Part shown: one piece after another, positions 16,207 to 31,969 of the stretch
Layout of the letters: each line of letters begins with the position of its first letter
Numbering within the stretch: the first letter of the stretch is position 1
NCBI GenBank assembly: GCA_012744415.1
Contig: JAAYCF010000178.1
Span: 1 to 32,490 of the forward strand
Source: Thermotogaceae bacterium
Lineage (GTDB): Bacteria; Thermotogota; Thermotogae; MWEM01
Direction of reading: 5' to 3'
DNA: 32,490 bases
Program-made: the position numbers and the translations under genes
The notes under the pieces: generated by a model
What the model was told of the DNA's origin: nothing
Database searches by the model: none
Seen by the model: the letters and a program-made list of their open reading frames with translations, nothing else

Positions 16207-17190
16207 ATGAGGTTCAAAGGTCAGCTGTTTTTCTGTTTGTTTCTGTTTCTCGCGTTATCTGTTTTTAGTCTAACGAGGATAGGCATTACCGCTATTACCG
16301 ACCATCCGGCTTTGGACGCGATACGTTTTGGGATTATCGACGGGTTGATCCAGGAAGGGTTGGTTCTCGGTCAGGATTTCGAATTTGAGTTTCAATCGGC
16401 GCAAGGCAACATGAGCACCGCTTTGGCGATTGCCAACCACTTCAATTCCAACGCTTTCGATCTTGTCGTGCCAATCACCACCCCCTCTGCGCAAGCGTGC
16501 GCGAACGTGATCAAAAACAAACCTGTCATTTTCAGCGCCGCGACCGATCCAGTGGCCGCTTCCCTGATTCCGGCTTTAGGAAAAAACCCGGGGAATGTGG
16601 TGGGAGTAAGCGATATGACGCCGGTTAAAACCCAAATACAACTGATGAAATTGGTTGTCCCCGGGTTAAGGCGGATCGGGATTATGACCAACCCGGGCGA
16701 AGCGAATTCGACGGTGCTGAAAGACCATGCGCAGATCGCCTGCTCGGAATTGGACATCGAATTGGTCGAAGTCGTTGGGACAAACACCTCAGAGATGATC
16801 GCCGCCCTCAGCGCGATCGTCTCCGCCATCGATGCGATTTATATCGGAACGGACAATACGGCCGCTTCATGCATCGAATCTCTACACCGGATTGCCCTCG
16901 CTCAAAAAACACCGATCATTTGCGCCGATATTTCAATGTCTCGATCCGGAGGCATGATTGGCTACGGATTCGATTATTACGCGTTCGGAATCGATACGAG
17001 CCGCATGGTATTGGAAATCATCCGGGGTAAAACGCCTTCAGAGATCGAATCTCGTCTCATCGGGCCGGAGTCTTTGCAACTACTCATCAATTTGGACTAC
17101 GCGAAACAAATCGGGTTAATGATACCGGAAGCGTTGATCGCGAGAGCTTCTTTTATTATCGAAAACGGAGTTGAAAGAGAGATTAAATAA
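16207..17190 (+). CDS. TrpX-type ABC transporter substrate-binding protein, paralogue 2 (predicted tryptophan/aromatic)
   Basis: The 327-residue product has a Sec signal peptide (FFCLFLFLALSVFS) and the same family blocks as its two paralogues: TRIGITAITDHPALDAIRFG, FQSAQGNMSTALAIANH, GKNPGNVVGVSDMTPVKTQ, TNPGEANST and YIGTDNTAASCIESLHRI. It is the copy directly linked to the permease and ATPase genes (17-base gap), so it is the core binding protein of the operon. The leader upstream has Trp, Phe and Tyr codons, suggesting tryptophan or mixed aromatic ligands; the ligand is inferred. ATG 16207 follows AGGAGG by five bases. It is the most divergent of the three paralogues in the segments around IICADISMSRSGGMIGYGFD. 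Confidence 0.9.
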   Translation: MRFKGQLFFCLFLFLALSVFSLTRIGITAITDHPALDAIRFGIIDGLIQEGLVLGQDFEFEFQSAQGNMSTALAIANHFNSNAFDLVVPITTPSAQACANVIKNKPVIFSAATDPVAASLIPALGKNPGNVVGVSDMTPVKTQIQLMKLVVPGLRRIGIMTNPGEANSTVLKDHAQIACSELDIELVEVVGTNTSEMIAALSAIVSAIDAIYIGTDNTAASCIESLHRIALAQKTPIICADISMSRSGGMIGYGFDYYAFGIDTSRMVLEIIRGKTPSEIESRLIGPESLQLLINLDYAKQIGLMIPEALIARASFIIENGVEREIK

Positions 17191-17207
17191 CGGATCGGGG
17201 TGTTTTC

Positions 17208-18230
17208 ATGCTGGGGATCGTGGAACAAGGCTTGATTTTAGGATTGATGTCCATCGGGGTGTTTATTTCTTTTCGTATTGTCAATATGGCGGACCTGACC
17301 GTTGACGGAACCTTTGCGCTCGGGGGCGCGTTATGCGTCAGACTCTTCTCACTAGGACTGAATGCGCCGGTCTCTCTTCTCTTGAGTCTTTTAGCGGGCG
17401 CGGGTGCCGGCATTCTAACCGGATTTCTGCACCGCAAGTTGAAAATCAACGTTTTGCTTGCCGGTATCTTGGTCATGACGATGCTCTATTCCATCAATCT
17501 TCGGATTATGAATGGGCCCAACCTTCCGATTCCAAAAACGTCCGTGAGCGCTTCTTTGGGCACTTTTGAACAGGTAGCCGGAAAAGATCCGCTTGCGGAT
17601 TTATTTGAGCCTTCCGCCCCCGCCGCCGCGCCTCAGAAAGAAATCGCGAAACATAGAACCTTCGAGAACATCTTCCTCGGGACGGCGGACGGTCAAGATC
17701 TTCTGCTCCTGTCCGCGATCGTCCTGATTTGCGTCGCCTTGACCGGTCTCTTTCTTCGGACCGAACTGGGTACCGCTCTGCGCGGATTTGGAACGAATCC
17801 GTCCGGACTGGAATCCTTCGGATTGCCCAAGACGTTGATGACCTTGTTGGGTTTGGGTTTGGCCAATGCCTTTGTGAGCCTTTCGGGTGGGATATTCGCG
17901 CTATACAGCGGATTTGCGGATGTTACGATGGGGCAGGGTATGATCGTAACCGGCCTGGCGGTCGTGATGCTTGGGGAGATCTTGTTCGTCAGGAGAAAGC
18001 TCGTCTACGGTATCTTCGCCCCGATCTTGGGTGGCATCGTCTATCAGGGGATTTTAGCCGTTGTGATGCGGTACGGCTACCGGATCGGATTCCGAGCGAG
18101 CGACATGAAGCTGCTCACCGCGCTTTTCATCGTGGCAGTCATCGGGTTTGGGTTGATTCAGACGAAAAAACGCATGAAAGGGAAATTTCGTTTATCTACC
18201 ATTTTTGGTGGGGGTGTGGGCCGTGATTAA
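17208..18230 (+). CDS. ABC transporter permease, TrpY-like
   Basis: The membrane subunit of 340 residues with about eight helices, of the branched-chain-type permease family (BPD_transp_2) used by TrpXYZ systems. The opening LGIVEQGLILGLMSIGVFIS and ADLTVDGTFALGGALCVRL are typical of TrpY-like permeases. A loop of about 65 residues (112-176), rich in Pro and Ala (FEPSAPAAAPQKE), separates the two halves and is unusually long. The later half contains TELGTALRGFGTNPSGLESFGL, whose ALRGFG region is the usual coupling helix. The stop overlaps the ATPase start by eight bases. It is likely shared by all three binding proteins of the locus, since no other permease is present. Confidence 0.9.
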   Translation: MLGIVEQGLILGLMSIGVFISFRIVNMADLTVDGTFALGGALCVRLFSLGLNAPVSLLLSLLAGAGAGILTGFLHRKLKINVLLAGILVMTMLYSINLRIMNGPNLPIPKTSVSASLGTFEQVAGKDPLADLFEPSAPAAAPQKEIAKHRTFENIFLGTADGQDLLLLSAIVLICVALTGLFLRTELGTALRGFGTNPSGLESFGLPKTLMTLLGLGLANAFVSLSGGIFALYSGFADVTMGQGMIVTGLAVVMLGEILFVRRKLVYGIFAPILGGIVYQGILAVVMRYGYRIGFRASDMKLLTALFIVAVIGFGLIQTKKRMKGKFRLSTIFGGGVGRD

Positions 18231-18990
18231 ACTGTCTGATGTCAGTGTGGTCTATCGAAAGGGTGAAGAGAACGAAAAATGCGCGTTGAAAAACGCAACG
18301 CTGCAGATCTCTCAAGGAGATTTTGTGATCATCGTCGGGCCGAACGGGGCAGGAAAGTCGACCCTCATGAAGGTATTGCTGTGCGAATTGGCGCCGACGG
18401 TAGGAACTTACTACTTAAATGGAAAATCAATGCGGGGGTTTTCTGTGACACAAGTGGCGCGTTGGGTCGGGCGTGTTTTTCAGGATCCAAACTCCGGCAT
18501 CTTTCCCGACCTCTCCATATTGGAGAATCTGTCGATAGCCTCTAAAAAAGGAGTTCGATGGCTGCGATTTCGAAGCTGTCCGCAAAAGGCGGTGTCCTTA
18601 CTCTCTCTTCTGGGATTGGGCTTGGAGAAAAACCTGAACACTCGGGCGGGTGACCTTTCAGGGGGACAGAAACAAGCCCTGGCGATGATCATGGCGATCA
18701 TTTCGGATCCCAAAGTCCTGCTTCTGGATGAGCATACCGCCTCTCTGGATCCGAAAAGCTCGGTCAAGGTCATGGAACTGACGCGTCAAATCAACGAACA
18801 GTTTGGGATCACGGTTGTGATGATTACCCATAATATGCCCTTTGCGGAACAATACGGAAACCGGAAATGGAAGATCGAAGAGGGTGAGGTTTACGAGTAC
18901 GAGTACCGACCGCCCGTCTGCTTGACCCGTTCGGAAAACCCGTTTCCGCTCGTGGGGGATCAGCGGCGCTGCGCGCCGAAATGCGTTTGA
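18223..18990 (+). CDS. ABC transporter ATP-binding protein, TrpZ-like
   Basis: A cytoplasmic ATPase of 255 residues with Walker A GPNGAGKST (39-47), Q-loop VFQDPN, signature LSGGQ (145-149), Walker B VLLLDE (165-170) followed by His instead of the usual Pro (DEHTASLDP), and switch His in MITHNMPFAEQYG. DEHTASLDP and HNM are usual in this subfamily of amino acid transporters. GTG 18223 gives MIKLSDVSVVY, the standard N-terminus; the longer GTG 18205 reading adds residues within the permease gene. The tail after VYEYEY (about 30 residues, PPVCLTRSENP onward) is long and Cys containing. It ends about 100 bases before the third leader ORF, so that unit may also be read from this operon. Confidence 0.9.
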   Translation: MIKLSDVSVVYRKGEENEKCALKNATLQISQGDFVIIVGPNGAGKSTLMKVLLCELAPTVGTYYLNGKSMRGFSVTQVARWVGRVFQDPNSGIFPDLSILENLSIASKKGVRWLRFRSCPQKAVSLLSLLGLGLEKNLNTRAGDLSGGQKQALAMIMAIISDPKVLLLDEHTASLDPKSSVKVMELTRQINEQFGITVVMITHNMPFAEQYGNRKWKIEEGEVYEYEYRPPVCLTRSENPFPLVGDQRRCAPKCV

Positions 18991-19103
18991 CCTTTGAAAA
19001 CGTCCGATATCTTTACATGAAGCCGCCAAGCTTGGCGACAGGTATTTTTAACACTGCGGCGAATGAATTATCGAAGCGTCGCGACGAAAGGATGTACAAA
19101 AAA

Positions 19104-19214
19104 ATGCGCAAAGAGAAAACGTGGATGCTTAAAATTAATGAAAGTGAGAACCAAATATCCCTTTACGCTTATTATCGGGCAAAGCCCTCCTGCGGCTTTG
19201 CTTTTCTTCCGTGA
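19104..19214 (+). CDS. Leader peptide 3 (Tyr-rich), attenuator of the third TrpX-type gene
   Basis: A 36-codon ORF from ATG 19104, with AAAGGA at 19087-19092 and an 11-base gap, to TGA 19212-19214. The control region is L-Y-A-Y-Y at 19161-19175, followed by RAKPSCGFAFLP and stop. Starts at 19092 or 19125 are also in frame. The frame is open back to 18981, but no SD supports the longer reading. The motif match to leaders 1 and 2 is strong, while the sequence before the control region is not conserved, as expected for a leader under selection only for codons and structure. I see no consensus promoter just upstream, so the unit may depend partly on readthrough from trpXYZ. Confidence 0.68.
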   Translation: MRKEKTWMLKINESENQISLYAYYRAKPSCGFAFLP

Positions 19215-19270
19215 TTCGGGACGAAGGCGAAAAAACAAGAGGGCATCGGAAACATGATGCCCTCTTTTAT
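19176..19270 (+). promoter_or_regulatory. Attenuator 3: 5' hairpin, antiterminator and terminator
   Basis: The hairpin pairs 19179-19186 (GCAAAGCC) with 19194-19201 (GGCTTTGC) around the 7-base loop CTCCTGC. The antiterminator can pair GCCCTC (19184-19189) with GAGGGC (19239-19244), with inner CTTC/GAAG pairing. The terminator uses GAGGGCATC and GATGCCCTC. Stem bases differ from copies 1 and 2 but pairing is kept, which is covariation support. Confidence 0.72.
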
Positions 19271-19273
19271 TTT
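19239..19273 (+). terminator. Intrinsic terminator in leader 3
   Basis: GAGGGCATC (19239-19247) pairs with GATGCCCTC (19256-19264), followed by TTTTATTTT. AAAGGAGG of the binding protein gene follows directly. Confidence 0.88.
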
Positions 19274-19288
19274 AAAGGAGGAGTCAAA

Positions 19289-20269
19289 ATGAAAAAAATG
19301 TTGTGGGTGCTTCTGTGTGCAGTAGTAATGAGCGTTTTCGGGTTTTCGACCGTAAGGATTGGGATCACCGCGATTGTCGATCACCCGGCGTTGGATTCCG
19401 CGCGGCTGGGGATCATCGAAGCGTTGGTTCAGCGGGGATTCGTTCTCGGAACGGATTTCGTCGTAGAGTTTCAATCGGCGCAAGGGAATATGAATACGGC
19501 GGTATCGATCGCCAATCATTTCCGATCCAGCGACTTTAGTCTGGTTGTCGGCATCTCAACTCCTTCGGCGCAAACGCTCGCGAACGCGATTAAGGATATT
19601 CCGGTGGTCTTTACCGCGGTCACGGATCCGGTAGCTTCCTCCCTGGTTCCATCCCTTGGGAAGAATCCGGGCAATGTCGTGGGGGTAAGCGATATGACCC
19701 CGGTGAAAACCCAGTTTCAACTGTTGAAATTAGTCGTTCCGACGGCTCAAAAGGTTGGGATTGTCACCAATCCGGGGGAAGCGAATTCGGTGATCGTGAC
19801 CGAACACGCGCGGCAGGCTTGCGAAGAGCTTGGATTAAGGCTGATCGAGGTCGTCGGCAGCAATTCTTCCGAGATGATCACGGCGCTGACGGCCGCGGTC
19901 GGGGAGTTGGACGCGCTTTATGTTGGAACAGACAACACCGCCGCTTCCTGCATCGAATCCTTGCATCGGATAACGGTGTCTAACAAGGTTCCCATGATGT
20001 GCGGAGACTTCACGCTCGCGCGCTCGGGTGGCGTGATGGCCTATGGTTTCGACTACTTCAACCTGGGTTTGGATACCGGCAAGATCGTCTGGGAGATCCT
20101 CAACGGGAAACCCGTCTCGGATATAGAATCGCGGTTGATGAACGCGGACTCCCTCCTGCTGCTGATCAATATGGATGTCGCGGAGGAGATATCCCTGGCC
20201 ATTCCGGATCTATTGATCGCTCGCGCAGATTTTCTCATCGTGAACGGTTCAGAACAACAAAAGCGTTAA
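19289..20269 (+). CDS. TrpX-type ABC transporter substrate-binding protein, paralogue 3 (predicted tyrosine/aromatic)
   Basis: The 326-residue product has a Sec signal peptide (WVLLCAVVMSVFGFS) and the shared blocks VRIGITAIVDHPALDSARLG, EFQSAQGNMNTAVSIANH, TDPVASSLVPSLGKNPGN, TNPGEANSV and YVGTDNTAASCIESLHRI. By eye it is closer to paralogue 1 than to paralogue 2 (for example DFTLARSGGVMAYGFDYFNL against FFTLARSNGVISYGFEYYNL). The Tyr-rich leader suggests tyrosine as ligand, which is inference. ATG 19289 has GGAGG four bases upstream; the upstream GTG 19211 reads through the terminator and is rejected. It is the last gene of the locus and converges on the GGDEF-RHH gene. Confidence 0.9.
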   Translation: MKKMLWVLLCAVVMSVFGFSTVRIGITAIVDHPALDSARLGIIEALVQRGFVLGTDFVVEFQSAQGNMNTAVSIANHFRSSDFSLVVGISTPSAQTLANAIKDIPVVFTAVTDPVASSLVPSLGKNPGNVVGVSDMTPVKTQFQLLKLVVPTAQKVGIVTNPGEANSVIVTEHARQACEELGLRLIEVVGSNSSEMITALTAAVGELDALYVGTDNTAASCIESLHRITVSNKVPMMCGDFTLARSGGVMAYGFDYFNLGLDTGKIVWEILNGKPVSDIESRLMNADSLLLLINMDVAEEISLAIPDLLIARADFLIVNGSEQQKR

Positions 20270-20328: not shown

Positions 20329-20934
20329 TTACAACCCGTACTTGCGCAGCAGATCGTCGACCGCTTCTCGGAGCAACGCGGATTCGGTCTTTTGGGTTTT
20401 TGTGGATAACTTGGAAAGCCCTTCCAGTTGAGAGGACAAAAAATAACTCGATTTGAGGACCATCTTTTGTTCTCTCGATCCGGGGGCGAAGACCAGCCGG
20501 TTTTTCCCTTGTTTCTTGGCGAGCATTAACCCCTCTGAGCAAAGATTCAACAATTTGACGACATTGTCCGCGGTTCTTCCGAACTCTCCCACGGAACCGC
20601 TCACTTGGACATCGATCTCTTTCTCGTCGAACGCGACCTTCTGCGCGGCGATCTTTTTACGGACCTCTTCCAGTTCCATGAACATCGCTTCAAGAGAGCA
20701 ATTAGACGAATACACGTAGAACTCGTCTCCGAAACGACGGACGAAAAAGCCTTCTGGTAAACAGATCTTGAGCGTTTCCTCGACGTGCGCGAGAACGTGG
20801 TCCCCTCCGGCTCGTCCGTAACGGGCATTGATCGACTCGAAACAGTCGACGTCCAAATCCCCCAAAGTCAACCCTTCGTTTTGAGCAACGGTTATCAATT
20901 CTTTTGAAAACTCATCGAATTCATTTTTCGACAT
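20329..20934 (-). CDS. GGDEF domain fused to a C-terminal ribbon-helix-helix DNA-binding domain
   Basis: The 201-residue product has a compact GGDEF domain (about 22-152). LDVDCFESINARYG (27-40) keeps the metal Asp28 and guanine-contact Asn36, and GGDHVL (43-48) keeps Asp45. The signature reads RFGDEF (67-72), with Phe in place of the first Gly, and KKQGKNRLVF (140-149) matches the usual domain end. The usual N-terminal sensor and the first turn of the domain are missing. Residues 158-201 read as a ribbon-helix-helix, with strand KSSYFLSSQLEGLSKLS, turn, then TESALLREAVDDLLRKYG. This suggests a transcription factor controlled by GTP or a cyclic dinucleotide, perhaps acting on its own promoter. 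Whether it makes c-di-GMP is doubtful given FGDEF. SD AAGGAAGGGG precedes ATG 20934. Confidence 0.78.
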   Translation of the reverse strand: MSKNEFDEFSKELITVAQNEGLTLGDLDVDCFESINARYGRAGGDHVLAHVEETLKICLPEGFFVRRFGDEFYVYSSNCSLEAMFMELEEVRKKIAAQKVAFDEKEIDVQVSGSVGEFGRTADNVVKLLNLCSEGLMLAKKQGKNRLVFAPGSREQKMVLKSSYFLSSQLEGLSKLSTKTQKTESALLREAVDDLLRKYGL

Positions 20935-20971
20935 GGTTTTCCCCTTCCTTATTGTATTTTGATATGTATAT

Positions 20972-21000
20972 ATATTATCATATATATATAATTAAGTCAA
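20972..21000 (-). promoter_or_regulatory. Promoter of the GGDEF-RHH gene with palindromic AT-rich spacer
   Basis: On the minus strand TTGACT (complement of 20995-21000), a 17-base spacer and TAATAT (complement of 20972-20977). The spacer and -10 lie in an inverted repeat of TATATATA separated by TTATCA (about 20967-20990), a candidate autoregulatory operator for the RHH domain. Confidence 0.6.
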
Positions 21001-21230: not shown

Positions 21231-21306
21231 GCTCCCGTCGTCCAGTGGTCTAGGACATCGCCCTTTCAAGGCGGAAACCGGGGTTCAAACCCCCGCGGGA
21301 GCGCCA
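21231..21306 (+). tRNA. tRNA-Glu (anticodon TTC)
   Basis: A cloverleaf with acceptor GCTCCCG/CGGGAGC, anticodon loop CTTTCAA, T-loop GGTTCAAAC and encoded CCA at 21304-21306. Confidence 0.95.
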
Positions 21307-21315
21307 TCTTCGTTT

Positions 21316-21390
21316 GGGCGCGTAGCTCAGCGGGAGAGCGCCTGCCTTACAAGCAGGAGGTCGCAGGTTCAAAACCTGCCGCTCCCACCA
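21316..21390 (+). tRNA. tRNA-Val (anticodon TAC)
   Basis: Anticodon arm CCTGC-CTTACAA-GCAGG, T arm GCAGG-TTCAAAA-CCTGC, encoded CCA at 21388-21390. Acceptor GGGCGCG against CGCTCCC leaves a C-T mismatch at pair 4-69, which is unusual. Confidence 0.92.
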
Positions 21391-21397
21391 AGTTAAC

Positions 21398-21473
<76 letters not shown>

Positions 21474-24360: not shown

Positions 24361-25596
24361 TTAACCCCAGAAGTCCGCGGTTTGCGCTTGGGTTTCTTTC
24401 TCGGAACGAGCGGAAGGTTCGATGATCTGCAGCGCCTTTTCCGCGGAAGCACCATCTTTAAGAAGGTCGAAGAACTCTATCAAGCTTTTGACGACTTGTC
24501 GCATCTCCACGAATTGGCTCTGATGGAAGGGAGAACTCAAACGGGTTTTGACCGCTTCTTTCAAAGCGGCGGTGACCGTATTCTTCGGGTCGTAACCGTA
24601 TGCGGCCGCGTAAATCGCGGACAAATCCGCGAAGAGGGGGTCGAAGACGTCGGGAGAGACGAGCGCCAGTGTCTGAACCGTGGATTCGGTGGTGACCGAT
24701 ACCTCGGTTTTCAAACGGTCGTATAACGCCAAATAGCTTTTTACACCGCGATCGGGGTTTTCGAACCAGTTGGGAGTTCCCAGCATGATGCAGTAGAGAT
24801 GAGGCAAGTCCTTGGATGAGATCATGTCCAGTATCTCGCGGAGGGCTTCATATCCTTTGAAAGTGGTTCGCGAGGGCAGGTTTTGCATCAATTCGAGCTC
24901 GTCGAAGACCATGATGACCCCATTGTAGGCGATAGCCTGCGATAACTTTAAAATGTCCTGGATAAACAGGTAACTTTCTTCTTTGGTCTCGACCCGGCGG
25001 CTGATCTTGATCGCTTTCAGATCCCAGTAGTTCACCTTCCTGCCGGACATCCAGTCGACGATCTTCTTTTTTTGATCTTCCATGCCTGAAAGATGCGCTT
25101 CTATAAAGGCAGAGATCGCCATATTGAAATCATTCGTGAACTCAAAATCGAGGATCTTTTGAGTGATTTGTTCCTTGAATAAAACGTCCTGGCCTCTCGT
25201 TAGGCCCGTCTGTTCTATCTCCCGGACCACTTTTTCCGCCCATTGCGAAAGCAGGTAAAATAAGGAATCGCCGGCGAACTCCGGCGTAATCATACCGTTG
25301 ATGATGGCTTGGTACAGCTCGACCGGTTTGGAGAGGGGGGGCTCGGAAACATAAATCGGGAGCAGACCGGCCTCAAGCCCCAATTCTAAGGCGGTTCTTC
25401 CTAGAAGGGACTTCCCGGTGCCGTAATCGCCGATAAGCACACGGATGGCGCTCCCCCCGGAAGCCACGAATTCGATATCTTTCCGGAGTATGCTCATTTC
25501 ACGCTCCCGGCCCTTCAGGATACGGCAAGCGGCGCCGAAGGGAAGGTCGGATCCGTTTCGGAGCGAACGGATGATCTCTTCTTCAAACGTGGACAT
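24361..25596 (-). CDS. BrxD/DUF2791-like P-loop ATPase
   Basis: The 411-residue product opens with IIRSLRNGSDLPFGAACRI and LKGREREMSILRKDI, the layout of DUF2791 (BREX BrxD-like) ATPases. Walker A is GDYGTGKSLL (56-65), Walker B is IMVFDELELMQNL (228-240), and a possible sensor lies in YCIMLGTPNWFENP. The C-terminal third is helical (VEMRQVVKSLIEFFDLL). In BREX loci BrxD sits with PglZ, BrxC and a methylase, none of which are here, so a BREX role is not supported. The start overlaps the previous stop by one base (TAATG), so it is coupled to a membrane-anchored coiled-coil gene upstream. They may form a two-component ATPase of unknown function. No terminator is visible between it and the chemoreceptor promoter. 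Confidence 0.75.
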   Translation of the reverse strand: MSTFEEEIIRSLRNGSDLPFGAACRILKGREREMSILRKDIEFVASGGSAIRVLIGDYGTGKSLLGRTALELGLEAGLLPIYVSEPPLSKPVELYQAIINGMITPEFAGDSLFYLLSQWAEKVVREIEQTGLTRGQDVLFKEQITQKILDFEFTNDFNMAISAFIEAHLSGMEDQKKKIVDWMSGRKVNYWDLKAIKISRRVETKEESYLFIQDILKLSQAIAYNGVIMVFDELELMQNLPSRTTFKGYEALREILDMISSKDLPHLYCIMLGTPNWFENPDRGVKSYLALYDRLKTEVSVTTESTVQTLALVSPDVFDPLFADLSAIYAAAYGYDPKNTVTAALKEAVKTRLSSPFHQSQFVEMRQVVKSLIEFFDLLKDGASAEKALQIIEPSARSEKETQAQTADFWG

Positions 25597-26537: not shown

Positions 26538-29500
26538 CTATTCGTGGACTTGAATCTGGTATCCGTTTGTCACAAAGACGCGGCTCGGATCGTACATTTC
26601 ATACAGTACGGCTGGGGGCACCTGGAAAGTGCCCGCCGTGGTGATCGTGTAGTAATATTTTTCGTTGGCATTCCCCTCGCTCATGGCGCTGTAGAAAGCT
26701 GCCGTACGGTCGTAACGGTCCTCTTTGTGCGTGTACCAGAGCCAGTTGGATCCGTAACCAAAATACTTGCCTTCATAATAACCGTACTCGCCTTCGGCCT
26801 GTATGAAGGCAGCCGGTATCGAATCCTCCAGTACAGAATACGCCAGCGATTCGGTTGTGTTGATCGGAAACCGATGGCGCACCTTGTCTCCCACCTTCAA
26901 TACCGTTTTGTTCGGGACGAAGTAGAGGGAATAATGGCCGTCGTATCCTAACCACGGGTTTTTGTTCAGGACGAGATGATCCGGGTAGAAACCCAACACC
27001 CGGCAATTTTCTCCGAAAGAAAGTCCGGTATCGTGCCCGTTGACGAAAAGTTCGTACACATCGTCTTGATAGCGATCGGTGTAGGCATAAACCAATTCAT
27101 AGTTTGTTAAAAGAATCGGGTCGATGTCCACGGGAATCCCCTTCTGTACGATGAGGCCCGGCAAGATGGGCACATCCCACGGAAGATAGATATCGAAACG
27201 GTAGGTATCGATCTGGTCTTTGTCTTGATAGGTATAGCTTGTCACTTCGTACAACTTCTCCAGTTTTCTTGAAAAACGGGTTTCAGGGGTCTTTGTCTTG
27301 TAATCCTCCAGTTTCCACGTTTCCGTACCGGTTAATTTCCAGAGAAGCCCTTGCGTGCCGCTGATATCGATTTCAAGAGAATCGCCCGCGCGCAAACAAA
27401 TGGGAATCGTGAGGCGTTCTCCTTTCAGAAGGGTTCTTGCGTATTGGGTGAACTCCGGAATATAGTCGGAGAGATTGCCTTCCGCTTGCCAGACGTACTG
27501 GTCTGAGAGAAGCTCGTCTCCCGCGAGGGCCATGACGGCGAAGGAGGTGTCTTTGGTGGACGTCCAATACTCACCCGACCGGTTCTTGAACAGATAAAGG
27601 ATTAATCCGCGCTTTTCGGCGCCTTCGTAGGCAAGGGCATGCATCAAAGACAACAACAGGGCATTTTTCTGGAAGGAACTCATGAAGTAGGCGTTCTTTT
27701 CAAACCGCACATAGAATAACGGCGCCGCTCGCGTCCCTTGCCCGATAATCTCATTCAGCAGAGCGTCAGCCGCGGATTTCTCTCCCATCCTAACGAAAGA
27801 CAACGCCAAAAAAAGCTTCGTTTCAAGGTTATCGGTGGCCGTCAGGAGCAAGGGATACTCCGAGTCGAACAGTTTGATCACGTAATAGCAGAAGGCCTCA
27901 TACTCTTTTGCTTGCTTGATGACGTTTTTAAGAGCCTGTACTCCCATGGCCACGACGTCCTCGTTCACTTCGTAGCCGGACTGTTTCAATTGATCGAAAG
28001 CGTACAGGACATAGGCTGTCATAAAGGGATCCGAAGACCCTCCGGCCCACCATCCCCAGCCTCCCTGATAGTTCTGCAGCCCATACAACCTCTGAACGCC
28101 ATTTCGGATGATATCCTCTATCGCGTTGAACGGTTCTTGATCACCTATTTCCGGACGTTCCTGGATCAGATACCGGGCCACGATCGCCGGCAGGAACGAG
28201 CTGACAGTTTGTTCCACGCATCCATACGGATAGCGGATCAAATACCGTAAGGCTTCGAGCAAATCTCCCGAGATATCGGCGCTGATCGTCAGTGACAATC
28301 GGGTTTCCGTTTCCGCTTGGTAGGCGATCCTTTGGTTTTCAAGGCTTAGCAGGCCGCTGAGACCCGTCGGAATTTCCATCGTGTTCGGCTTCACGGGTAT
28401 CACATGCACCATCGCGTCGGAAGCCGTAACGCCTTCGGCTTTGAGGGAAAAGGCGAGCGATGTCTCCTGTTCCACCTCCGGAAGCGCGATCGTAAACCAG
28501 AAGACCCGACTGCTTCTCGCCGGTATGACTGCGGTTTGCACCAAAACTTCGCTTTGCGCTTCTTGCGGCAATCCTAAAGATACGGTAAAAGTTTCTTCTT
28601 GATCCAGACTGTTTCCGACCAGTAGGCCGACGCGCGTTTGATCTCCCGAGCGAAGGAACTTCGGGAACACCGGGTTGACCGTTACCGGAAGCGTCGACAG
28701 AATCTGGGTCTTGGCATATCCCGTTAACCCCGTTTTCGTAAAGGCCATCGCGCGCACACTCCAGGTCGTTAGGTCTTCGGGCAAGGTTATTTCTGTTTTG
28801 TCGCTGCCGGAAACCACCCATAAAGGCGTCCAAAAGGCCGTGTCCGAAAACTTCGTGCGAACCTTCACCGAACGGTTTGTTGCAGCTTGTTTCGTTTGCG
28901 CGAGCGTCTCCGCTGTTTCATAGACATAGTCGGACGATTGCGTATTCCTCAGACGGTAATAATAGTAAGAATCATTGAAATAATAAAAACCATATCGGAG
29001 GGGAGGATTGGTCAGAATGTTCAGCAAGCCTTCCCAATCATCGTCTCCGTAGAGATCGAGAACGGCCTGGTCCAGGATGCCCAGCGTCACGGCTCCTTCC
29101 ACCGGTTTTTCTTCTTTGTTCATCAGCTGCACTTCGAGAGGAATGGTTTCGCCGGGTCGGGTCTCTTCGGGCGCCCGTATAAGGATCGTCGCTTGGCGAT
29201 GACTCAAATCCACAGGAACGGATAGATACTTCGTCAACCATTTCGACCCGTAAAAGGACACGAATCGGCATCTCAAGGAAGAGGCATTGACTTTGTCGGA
29301 TACGTAGAAAGCAATCTGCCCGTTGCCGTTTTTGAGCTTTATTTCCCGAATACTGGCCTGGTTGCCGTCATCGATCAAAGCTAAAACGCTCAGCGACGGA
29401 AAGGAGGAAACCACATTGAAGATAATCTGATCGCCCGGGCCGGCGGTTTCCAGATTGGTGAAGACATCCAGCTCTTTGCCGGTTCGATAGGTATAGGTGG

Positions 29501-31037
29501 AAGCATAAGAGAACAAATACCGTTCCACGGCGTAAGCCGGATATTTCGCGTCAGTCAGGCGGAATCGGTAAGATCCCGGTTTTTTCGGTTCGTAGGCTAA
29601 CTGAAACGCCCCGTTTGGATCGGCATAGACGGTGGACGAAGCCTCGAGCGTGTCGTCGTAAAAGATTTCCAGGATCATCGCGCGGGCGATGTCAGCCTGC
29701 GAAAGGAGGCTTTTAACCTGTACGGTTCCGTTTGCCGTTTGTCCGAAGGGTAACCACGACTTCGAGAGCTTAAAATCGATCTCGACGTCGGAAGGAATAT
29801 ACCGGAAGAAGAGGGTGTCTTCGATCTCTCGGCCGGTCTGGTCGACTACCGTACAGGTGACCTGCACGTTCTGTTTTTTGTTTCGCGGGATTTGTAGCGA
29901 AGCGTTGGCGACGCCGTCTTTAACCGGAAAGACGCGGCTGTCCAGTATCTTTTCGGATTCGTCGTAGTAGTCTTCCGAAAGCTCGATGACGTGCAGGTGA
30001 AGATTGGCGTCCGAAACGCTTTGCCCGTAGTAGTAAGTGGCTTCCACACGCAGGTCTATCGGCTCGTCAAGCGCGAAAACCGGTTTTTGAAGCGCGGCCT
30101 TTACCGTAAACGAGGGCTTGGCGTAGTCCGCCAATTCAAAGTAACGAACGCTCTCTTTCTTTTCGAAACGAATCTTGACGGTATAGTGTCCCCGCGTATC
30201 ATCCGGGAAGGTTTCATAAATAAAGCTGATCCCTCCCCAAGAATCGGACTGAAAGACGCTTCTCATCTTTTCTCTTCCCAGCGGATCCTCGATAACGACT
30301 TCAACGGAACGCTGAGCCAACAATTCACCGGTTTGGGAATCCAATAAGACCGCCCGAGCCTGGACCAAATCCCCCGGACGATATAAAGGACGGTCCGTCA
30401 GGAAGATCAAAGGGTCGCGCTCCGCGTATTCCTGACGGAGGGAGTCCGAAAGGAACAGAATCCCATAAGGGGTTTCGATAAACAGCGTTTCTTCCACAAT
30501 CCTTGATTTCTCTATCTCGACGATACCCGTAGAAGGAGCTATTGATAGGGGTATCGGGGAAGTGTACCCCGTAACGATCTGCGTGAATCGGACATCCTTT
30601 CCTTCGGTGTTGTCCCAAAGCTTTAGGAAGACAGATTCACCCATGCTCACCAAAGCGCCGTTCACGTTCGTCTTCAGCAGGAGGGTGTAGTCTTTTTCGC
30701 TTTTCGAGACAAATTCAAGGAGGTAAGTTCCGGTTCTTTCAAAATAACCCGATGGGATCTCCAGACGTTTCCACATCTTCACTTCTTCAAAAAACAAAGT
30801 TTGATCAGACTGTTTGAGCGGCTTTTTTAAAGAATCGCTCTTGAATTCGCCCAAAAAATCTTGAAGCGCGGGACCCATATAGTATAGGTTGACGGTTACT
30901 CCGTCAGGTTCGTCATAGACCCAAAACGAGTAGGATTGATAAGGATAAAGAATGGCGTTTCTGTCCGTAGAGACGTAACCGAATGCGATACCCGATATCG
31001 CAATAAGAAAAAGAAAGAGCCATAAAGCGTTTTTCAT
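26538..31037 (-). CDS. Bacterial alpha-2-macroglobulin with intact thioester motif
   Basis: A 1499-residue secreted protease trap. It has a signal peptide (ALWLFLFLIAISGIAFG) with no lipobox Cys, unlike the lipidated E. coli form. Macroglobulin beta domains follow, including the MG2-type DRPLYRPGDLVQARAVLLDS at about 217-236. A bait-region-like stretch near residues 680-720 is Tyr rich (YYYFNDSYYYYRLRN after PPLRYG). The sequence WVVSGSDKTEITLPEDLTTW is typical of the A2M domain. The thioester YPYGCVEQT has Cys940 and Gln943 and is followed by alpha-alpha-barrel repeats (LQNYQGGWGWWAGGSSDPF). ATG 31037 follows GGGGGG. It is encoded 11 bases after the DUF1175 gene. The usual bacterial partner PBP1C is absent from the window. 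It probably protects the envelope or periplasm from foreign proteases. Confidence 0.92.
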   Translation of the reverse strand: MKNALWLFLFLIAISGIAFGYVSTDRNAILYPYQSYSFWVYDEPDGVTVNLYYMGPALQDFLGEFKSDSLKKPLKQSDQTLFFEEVKMWKRLEIPSGYFERTGTYLLEFVSKSEKDYTLLLKTNVNGALVSMGESVFLKLWDNTEGKDVRFTQIVTGYTSPIPLSIAPSTGIVEIEKSRIVEETLFIETPYGILFLSDSLRQEYAERDPLIFLTDRPLYRPGDLVQARAVLLDSQTGELLAQRSVEVVIEDPLGREKMRSVFQSDSWGGISFIYETFPDDTRGHYTVKIRFEKKESVRYFELADYAKPSFTVKAALQKPVFALDEPIDLRVEATYYYGQSVSDANLHLHVIELSEDYYDESEKILDSRVFPVKDGVANASLQIPRNKKQNVQVTCTVVDQTGREIEDTLFFRYIPSDVEIDFKLSKSWLPFGQTANGTVQVKSLLSQADIARAMILEIFYDDTLEASSTVYADPNGAFQLAYEPKKPGSYRFRLTDAKYPAYAVERYLFSYASTYTYRTGKELDVFTNLETAGPGDQIIFNVVSSFPSLSVLALIDDGNQASIREIKLKNGNGQIAFYVSDKVNASSLRCRFVSFYGSKWLTKYLSVPVDLSHRQATILIRAPEETRPGETIPLEVQLMNKEEKPVEGAVTLGILDQAVLDLYGDDDWEGLLNILTNPPLRYGFYYFNDSYYYYRLRNTQSSDYVYETAETLAQTKQAATNRSVKVRTKFSDTAFWTPLWVVSGSDKTEITLPEDLTTWSVRAMAFTKTGLTGYAKTQILSTLPVTVNPVFPKFLRSGDQTRVGLLVGNSLDQEETFTVSLGLPQEAQSEVLVQTAVIPARSSRVFWFTIALPEVEQETSLAFSLKAEGVTASDAMVHVIPVKPNTMEIPTGLSGLLSLENQRIAYQAETETRLSLTISADISGDLLEALRYLIRYPYGCVEQTVSSFLPAIVARYLIQERPEIGDQEPFNAIEDIIRNGVQRLYGLQNYQGGWGWWAGGSSDPFMTAYVLYAFDQLKQSGYEVNEDVVAMGVQALKNVIKQAKEYEAFCYYVIKLFDSEYPLLLTATDNLETKLFLALSFVRMGEKSAADALLNEIIGQGTRAAPLFYVRFEKNAYFMSSFQKNALLLSLMHALAYEGAEKRGLILYLFKNRSGEYWTSTKDTSFAVMALAGDELLSDQYVWQAEGNLSDYIPEFTQYARTLLKGERLTIPICLRAGDSLEIDISGTQGLLWKLTGTETWKLEDYKTKTPETRFSRKLEKLYEVTSYTYQDKDQIDTYRFDIYLPWDVPILPGLIVQKGIPVDIDPILLTNYELVYAYTDRYQDDVYELFVNGHDTGLSFGENCRVLGFYPDHLVLNKNPWLGYDGHYSLYFVPNKTVLKVGDKVRHRFPINTTESLAYSVLEDSIPAAFIQAEGEYGYYEGKYFGYGSNWLWYTHKEDRYDRTAAFYSAMSEGNANEKYYYTITTAGTFQVPPAVLYEMYDPSRVFVTNGYQIQVHE

Positions 31038-31048
31038 AATGTCCCCCC

Positions 31049-31969
31049 TTAAGAAAGATTGTCGTTCAATATTTTAAGACGGAAAAACCCCAAAAAGTTC
31101 GGATTTTCCTTGACCGGGAGCCACGTCAACGGAGCCGCTTTCAAGTATTCCTCCGTTTTCCACAGCCGGACATCCCCTTCCGAAACATCCGATCCCCCGG
31201 TATGATAAACGAAGCCGTCTCCGGTGTACATCATCACGTGGTACGGGAAGGCCACGTCCTGAGGATGGTAAAGAAAGAGAAGATCGCCGGGCTTTACTTC
31301 GGGCCCCAGGGAGTGACTGACTTTGACCACGTTATACAGAAACAGGTTTCGTGCATTGGCGAAGCCGTAAAACCCTTCCTTTAACTGGTAAATTTGCGTG
31401 CCGAGCGTCGGGATGGCCGGATAATGAAAAGCCTGTATATCCGGAAAGGAAGCTGGGGCGATCCGAACACGCACGTACCATCGGGCATCATGCTTTCGCA
31501 GCGATTCCTGGAGGGCGAATCGTATTAAACCCGAGCAGTCCCGATCCTTCCACGCGGGAGACAGTTCAATTCTTTGCTGCATGGCGATATAAACGAACCA
31601 GCTACGAAATCGTTCTGCATCCTCCCCCCACAACTCGGCTTCATCCGGAAACCCGTCGCCGTCAGAATCCGCCATCGGCGCTTGTCCTTTCATTTCGTTG
31701 AGTTTACCTAAGAATCCGTTGCGATAAAGGACAAGCGACCACTTTGGGAGAGCGAGACGGGCAATCACCTTGTCTTCCAGCTCTTTCACGTCCGCCAGTC
31801 CTTCGTAGGATAACACCCGGGATAAAAGGGGTTTTTCCACGATCAACAGATCTCCGATAAAAACCGGTTCCTTCTGTATTCTGGGAGGAAATAGAAGCGG
31901 GAGGCTGACGATATTCAAAGACCAAGCGAATAGTCCACAGGCGATGAAAATACCGAGAGTTTTTTTCAA
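31049..31969 (-). CDS. DUF1175 family protein (YfaT-like, NlpC/P60-type hydrolase fold)
   Basis: The 306-residue product has an N-terminal signal or anchor (IFIACGLFAWSLNIVSLPLL). It carries DRDCSGLIRFALQ (142-154), the Cys145-containing helix seen in NlpC/P60-type hydrolases, and the later His segment FPYHVMMYTGDGFVYHTG; together they form a plausible Cys-His site. Residues 101-113 read DSDGDGFPDEAEL, an EF-hand/dockerin-like calcium loop. DUF1175 genes accompany bacterial alpha-2-macroglobulin genes (for example the E. coli yfaS-yfaT locus), as here with an 11-base gap. Substrate is unknown. The start is TTG 31969, with GGAGGGG four to five bases upstream; I see no ATG with a better SD. Confidence 0.82.
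   Translation of the reverse strand: MKKTLGIFIACGLFAWSLNIVSLPLLFPPRIQKEPVFIGDLLIVEKPLLSRVLSYEGLADVKELEDKVIARLALPKWSLVLYRNGFLGKLNEMKGQAPMADSDGDGFPDEAELWGEDAERFRSWFVYIAMQQRIELSPAWKDRDCSGLIRFALQESLRKHDARWYVRVRIAPASFPDIQAFHYPAIPTLGTQIYQLKEGFYGFANARNLFLYNVVKVSHSLGPEVKPGDLLFLYHPQDVAFPYHVMMYTGDGFVYHTGGSDVSEGDVRLWKTEEYLKAAPLTWLPVKENPNFLGFFRLKILNDNLS

Follow-up and report, generated by a model that had tools for sequence, protein, structure and literature searches.

A gene in the 32,490-nucleotide stretch of DNA that we analysed (hereafter the window, a 32-kb contig from a 2.6-Mb Thermotogota genome) encodes a GGDEF domain fused to a C-terminal ribbon-helix-helix (RHH) domain. The protein is not a singleton, as GGDEF-RHH proteins form a family present in two phyla, and they probably represent a type of gene switch not yet described, with a guanine nucleotide as the signal sensed. 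The reading that we prefer, with moderate confidence, is that of an autoregulated one-component regulator, in which the RHH tail would act on TAYRTA sites and the degenerate GGDEF domain would serve as a guanine-nucleotide sensor or an oligomerisation switch.

The open reading frame (P0001) is intact and fills positions 20329-20934 exactly on the minus strand, with an ATG at 20934, a stop at 20331-20329 and 201 codons specifying 201 aa. Comparison with its 88%-identical orthologue from Thermotogae bacterium ADurb.Bin062 (L009) gives a dN/dS of ~0.07 at a dS of ~1.1, and P0001 is therefore a conserved protein under selection, not a chance ORF. The GGDEF domain (residues 13-149; 20488-20898, minus strand) was delimited by a Pfam PF00990 match to residues 13-146 (E 5.4e-16, 59.2 bits vs a cut-off of 23.8) together with conserved-residue counts, and profile comparison finds the same fold in 47 PDB sequences, the best being 6zxb (1.8e-19). 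The RHH tail (residues 155-201; 20332-20472, minus strand), in which a strand is expected at about residues 157-165 followed by two helices, matches RHH_3 (PF12651) over residues 166-199 with 26.0 bits vs a cut-off of 21.6 when the full protein is scanned, and with 30.1 bits (E 4.6e-7) when the tail is scanned alone. It is the sole RHH_3 match in its genome, where there are 15 other GGDEF matches. Both Pfam matches are present in all 13 Thermotogota family members scanned. The fusion is real, as the earlier note on this DNA had claimed from the letters alone; its description of a soluble protein with an N-terminal GGDEF domain, no sensor and a C-terminal RHH domain was correct, and its coordinates hold, to which we add the strand (minus) that it left unnamed. 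A weak PADLOC match of P0001 to PtuB (E 2e-4) straddles the domain junction and was set aside.

A profile search recovered the full-length protein from 14 of 103 Thermotogota genomes, belonging to the genus of the window and to one family, and a tail search of this phylum found no comparable-scoring tail elsewhere in it. One GGDEF-RHH gene (L040 8119-8573, genome G054, Thermotogota) has an in-frame TGA and is either a pseudogene or a sequencing error; the sister genome G055 has an intact copy. When the tail profile was run against 390 genomes, mostly of other phyla, it retrieved a single further fusion, that of G378 (E 1.5e-15), a protein 217 aa long that matches both GGDEF (6.8e-25) and RHH_3 (6.2e-6). 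Within the phylum of G378, referred to below as the second phylum, GGDEF-RHH proteins are encoded by 26 of 68 genomes and 20 of 44 genera. A search for this domain architecture had been suggested at the outset, and by way of profile searches it returned a family in Thermotogota and the second phylum. The tails of the two phyla are clearly homologous: when six Thermotogota tails are aligned with the one from G378, 16 of 53 columns are invariant. In a tree of the GGDEF domains the GGDEF-RHH proteins of each phylum form one clade; the tree does not settle whether the two share a fusion event. Tail relatives were found neither in plasmids or phages nor in viral contigs, where a canonical GGDEF-EAL protein is the single match. 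Among unfused proteins, the closest to the tail that we found are standalone 61-aa RHH_3-type proteins from two other bacterial genomes (L081 1480-1665 and L082 1486-1671).

The tail is the best-conserved portion of the GGDEF-RHH protein and contains the invariant pattern ES-LLREA--DLLRKY. Structure prediction of the C-terminal residues, which the earlier note had proposed, recovered part of the anticipated fold: AlphaFold2 models the monomeric tail as two helices (154-176 and 179-198, pLDDT 83), and the strand is absent from this model. Since the strand of RHH proteins pairs only between subunits, a monomer model that lacks it neither proves nor refutes the ribbon. The full-length AlphaFold2 model, built on a two-sequence alignment, is of low confidence (mean pLDDT 52). 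A Foldseek comparison of the tail model with the PDB gave no match, which is expected because the model is a two-helix fragment. In a PDB profile search with the tail all matches were sub-threshold, and the top two are RHH proteins (7by2, E 0.16; 2k5j, E 0.63). The standalone RHH_3 proteins align over the whole tail without internal gaps, the strand region included.

The catalytic hairpin of the GGDEF domain is damaged in two different ways in the two lineages, judging from a joint alignment of 37 proteins (13 from Thermotogota and 24 from the second phylum). All 13 Thermotogota proteins have R-x-G-D-E-F (one of them in the form R-x-S-D-E-Y), one Gly short of RxGGDEF, and P0001 carries this degenerate signature as R67-F-G-D-E-F72 (20719-20736, minus strand); in the second phylum the hairpin is RxGGDA in 24 of 24. 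The canonical signature RxGG(D/E)EF is found in neither branch, and the 11 control GGDEF proteins, seven of them from the same genome as P0001, all have RxGG[DE]EF. The earlier note took FGDEF for a substitution; because the alignment reads R-F-(gap)-G-D-E-F and the controls are canonical, it is instead a deletion of one Gly, with Phe68 as the ordinary aromatic residue before GG and no change of Gly to Phe.

The residues of the nucleotide pocket are conserved across the same alignment: D28, D45, D70 and K140 are invariant in the 37 proteins and N36 is found in 36. Asp28, Asn36 and Asp45, singled out as landmarks in the earlier note, are present and invariant in 13 of 13 Thermotogota members, and so is the DE core. 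In PleD numbering, the equivalents of D327, D344, E370 and K442 are invariant in all 37, that of N335 in 36, and that of R446 is kept in 33. Thermotogota members keep E71 and mostly R144, and some lose R144 or N145. The RxxD I-site is absent in both branches, its Arg position being Leu in 13 of 13 Thermotogota proteins and never Arg in the second phylum. In VCA0965, changing AGDEF to AGDAF abolishes activity, and the first position of the motif tolerates Gly, His and Met besides Ala (PMC3974145). Given that inactivation, the GGDA proteins of the second phylum are very probably catalytically inactive. The Thermotogota proteins are probably inactive as well; they keep D-E-F and the metal residues, so that weak cyclase activity might persist in this branch. 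The lost hairpin and the kept pocket fit the proposal of ligand binding rather than synthesis, short of proof.

A 29-bp block conserved with the orthologue lies upstream of the gene and forms the candidate operator TATATATATATGATAATATATATACATAT (TATATA-N8-TATATA plus TATACATAT; 20962-20990, minus strand). It overlaps a sigma-70-like promoter, TTGACT-17-TAATAT (20972-21000, minus strand), which is identified by consensus match alone, at 9 of 12 positions. Between two species of the genus the 29 bp have one mismatch and the flanks have diverged, in surroundings of ~50% GC. Exact TATATATACATAT occurs once in each of the two genomes compared, both times at this promoter; the second match in these genomes (G000/G001), TACATATACATAT, lies inside an apparent amidohydrolase-type coding sequence. 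Upstream of the Thermotogota GGDEF-RHH genes there is an AT-rich block carrying repeats of the TATACATA type, and ATATACATATAT occurs 15 times in 10 Thermotogota genomes, 7 of these in the GGDEF-RHH promoter. Elsewhere, exact ATATACATATAT occurs at dispersed sites that have no target gene in common. At one of them (L069 ~1501, genome G048) the site lies just before a short Gly/Arg-rich ORF adjoining a ParA/MinD-like ATPase gene, which may be an extra target. With so few strong sites elsewhere in the genomes, Thermotogota offer no obvious target except the GGDEF-RHH gene, which is often monocistronic.

The repeat is more regular in the second phylum, where 21 of 24 promoters contain TACATA-N8-TATGTA, exactly or with a single mismatch, vs 0 of 2000 random 200-mers, and where a spacer of 8 is the commonest, accounting for 22 of 36 exact pairs of half-sites. 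Several of these promoters have three half-sites at a 14-bp period. The sites are nearly exclusive to the gene: 14 of the 21 exact ones in 68 genomes are at the GGDEF-RHH promoter, and a count of one-mismatch sites in nine genomes gave the own-promoter site plus control-level numbers elsewhere. The best promoter-like match and the repeat overlap in 18 of 22 cases, and in 8 of these the spacer contains the -35 hexamer in the same register. The candidate operator of the window is a TA-rich block less regular than the consensus of the second phylum, which several promoters of the Mesotoga group also match poorly. The idea that the repeat is mere AT-rich promoter DNA was rejected for the second phylum, given a spacer fixed at 8 bp and the result for the control stretches; the fixed spacer applies to that phylum, the Thermotogota promoters being TA runs. 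As a computational footprint, the repeat looks like the operator of an autorepressor. The earlier note had imagined a direct nucleotide-responsive repressor, and sequence inference supports the DNA-binding autoregulator part of this idea, for which the own-promoter repeat in two phyla and the differing hairpin lesions appear to be the strongest arguments.

The gene neighborhood of GGDEF-RHH genes differs between the phyla. In the second phylum the contig continues beyond the GGDEF-RHH gene in 25 genomes, and in all 25 of them leuC (LeuC assigned by an equivalog match of 786 bits) is found downstream in the same orientation, at a gap of ~20-120 nt in 11 of the 25 and usually with leuD next. The GGDEF-RHH gene is thus the leader of a leucine operon in many genomes of this phylum. 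No linkage to leuC was found in Thermotogota, where an MFS transporter gene is next on the same strand in seven genomes (a Mesotoga-like group and G041). In the window the downstream neighbor is convergent and encodes an ABC substrate-binding protein. In an ABC transporter locus of the window (16207-20269, plus strand) substrate-binding proteins of one family (327 and 352 aa) flank a permease and an ATPase, and a third related copy upstream at ~13254 possibly reflects duplication of the binding protein. Three consecutive tRNA genes (Glu, Val, Phe; 21231-21473, plus strand) are divergent from the GGDEF-RHH gene. The window also encodes a 411-aa BrxC/BrxD-type ATPase (24361-25596, minus strand; Pfam BrxC_BrxD 1e-54, PADLOC BrxD 9e-36, SngB 1e-29) adjoining a 242-aa protein without a Pfam match, with no further defence gene among those scanned, and a 1499-aa bacterial alpha-2-macroglobulin (26538-31037, minus strand; MG2, A2M, TED, bMG10) adjoined by a 306-aa protein (31049-31969).

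We infer DNA binding, repression, ligand and coupling in the following model. The C-terminal RHH tail would dimerise and bind TAYRTA half-sites that recur every 14 bp (8-bp spacer) across the promoter of its own gene. Since this would cover the -35/-10 region, the most likely outcome is repression. Since the guanine and metal pocket is kept, the N-terminal GGDEF domain, its cyclase geometry lost, probably has a guanine nucleotide as its ligand, be it GTP, c-di-GMP or another, and pairing between GGDEF domains could join RHH dimers on the operator or set them free, and so alter cooperativity. GTP would be a natural candidate, because its pocket is kept and because, in Firmicutes, branched-chain amino-acid genes are coupled to GTP through CodY; further candidates are c-di-GMP and (p)ppGpp. 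The predicted target in the second phylum is leuCD, so that a switch at the head of the operon would control leucine synthesis, and in Thermotogota it would be the GGDEF-RHH gene itself, with the transporter in some genomes.

Two alternatives concern the GGDEF domain. It is unlikely, in our view, that the protein is a trigger enzyme whose GGDEF domain retains slow or DNA-dependent c-di-GMP synthesis, with the RHH domain coupling this activity to DNA binding much as PdeL couples its EAL domain to DNA. Thermotogota members do keep D28, D70, E71 and K140, and mostly R144, and change at the first GGDEF position is tolerated in VCA0965 (PMC3974145), but the outright deletion of a hairpin residue in 13 of 13 of them goes beyond simple change, R144 or N145 is lost in some, and the second phylum has, in all 24 proteins, the change that inactivates VCA0965. 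Nor is it probable that the domain is a structural dimerisation or oligomerisation module without a ligand and the protein a plain RHH autorepressor. The catalytic lesions in both branches and the I-site in neither would agree with such a scaffold, which, however, would need none of the guanine and metal residues; yet the 37 proteins show next to no variation at D28, N36, D45, D70 and K140, in contrast to the drift seen at other GGDEF positions.

The tail, for its part, might be an RHH-like protein-protein module (e.g. antitoxin-like) that does not bind DNA, the repeat then being bound by something else. Matches to Antitox_RHH in 11 of 13 members (below the cut-off in P0001) and the strand missing from the tail model would be compatible with this, but the repeat tracks the gene in two phyla and occurs almost nowhere else, its fixed 14-bp period suits arrays of small dimers, and gapless alignment of the standalone RHH_3 proteins extends over the strand, all of which makes such a module very improbable. 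The autoregulated one-component regulator is the reading that we retain. We offer more tentatively, as a possibility that is less likely than not, that GGDEF-RHH proteins constitute, in two phyla or more, a separate family of repressors responsive to guanine nucleotides, and that the second phylum couples its guanine-nucleotide state to leucine biosynthesis, a CodY-like role played by an unrelated protein.

No description of a GGDEF-RHH protein was found in the open-access literature searched, in keeping with the earlier statement that no characterised example was known, and a review of c-di-GMP effectors from 2025, in the sections consulted, gives CdbA as the RHH member without mention of any GGDEF-RHH protein (PMC12564702). 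Almost all study of GGDEF domains has treated them as c-di-GMP synthases, or as I-site receptors, placed behind a sensor. In GGDEF-RHH proteins the domain is likely itself the input of a DNA-binding protein, its hairpin broken in two ways and its nucleotide pocket kept; if this is true, what was a cyclase fold now serves a one-component regulator as its sensor. The predicted operator, the predicted target operon leuCD and the small soluble proteins make the model directly testable, and it points to a link between guanine-nucleotide signalling and amino-acid synthesis in poorly studied phyla.

Among known systems, NikR likewise has an RHH domain fused to a ligand-binding domain, which connects RHH dimers with one another and governs binding to a palindromic operator. 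In NikR, unlike GGDEF-RHH proteins, the RHH domain is N-terminal, the sensor is an ACT-like nickel domain and the operator half-sites are further apart. CodY of Firmicutes, which combines a GAF domain with a winged HTH and links GTP to branched-chain amino-acid genes, is unrelated as a protein and is likened here by role, one suggested for the second phylum by the leuCD linkage. Degenerate GGDEF receptors, a class reviewed in PMC12564702, have lost synthesis and act as receptors. The known ones usually retain an I-site or some other motif for binding and have no RHH fusion partner, whereas GGDEF-RHH proteins lack the I-site. PdeL, a trigger phosphodiesterase and transcription factor, also unites a c-di-GMP-turnover domain and a DNA-binding domain in one chain (PMC5052742). 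These are an EAL domain and a LuxR-type HTH, and PdeL is catalytically active whereas the GGDEF-RHH proteins are degenerate. CdbA of Myxococcus xanthus is an RHH DNA-binding protein controlled by c-di-GMP that binds its own promoter in vitro; it is a genome-wide nucleoid protein of 67 aa in which the RHH itself binds c-di-GMP (PMC7156744). CdbA/CdbB resemble GGDEF-RHH proteins in the RHH domain, and also in nucleotide control and own-promoter binding, both of which are known for CdbA and predicted for GGDEF-RHH; CdbA has no GGDEF domain.
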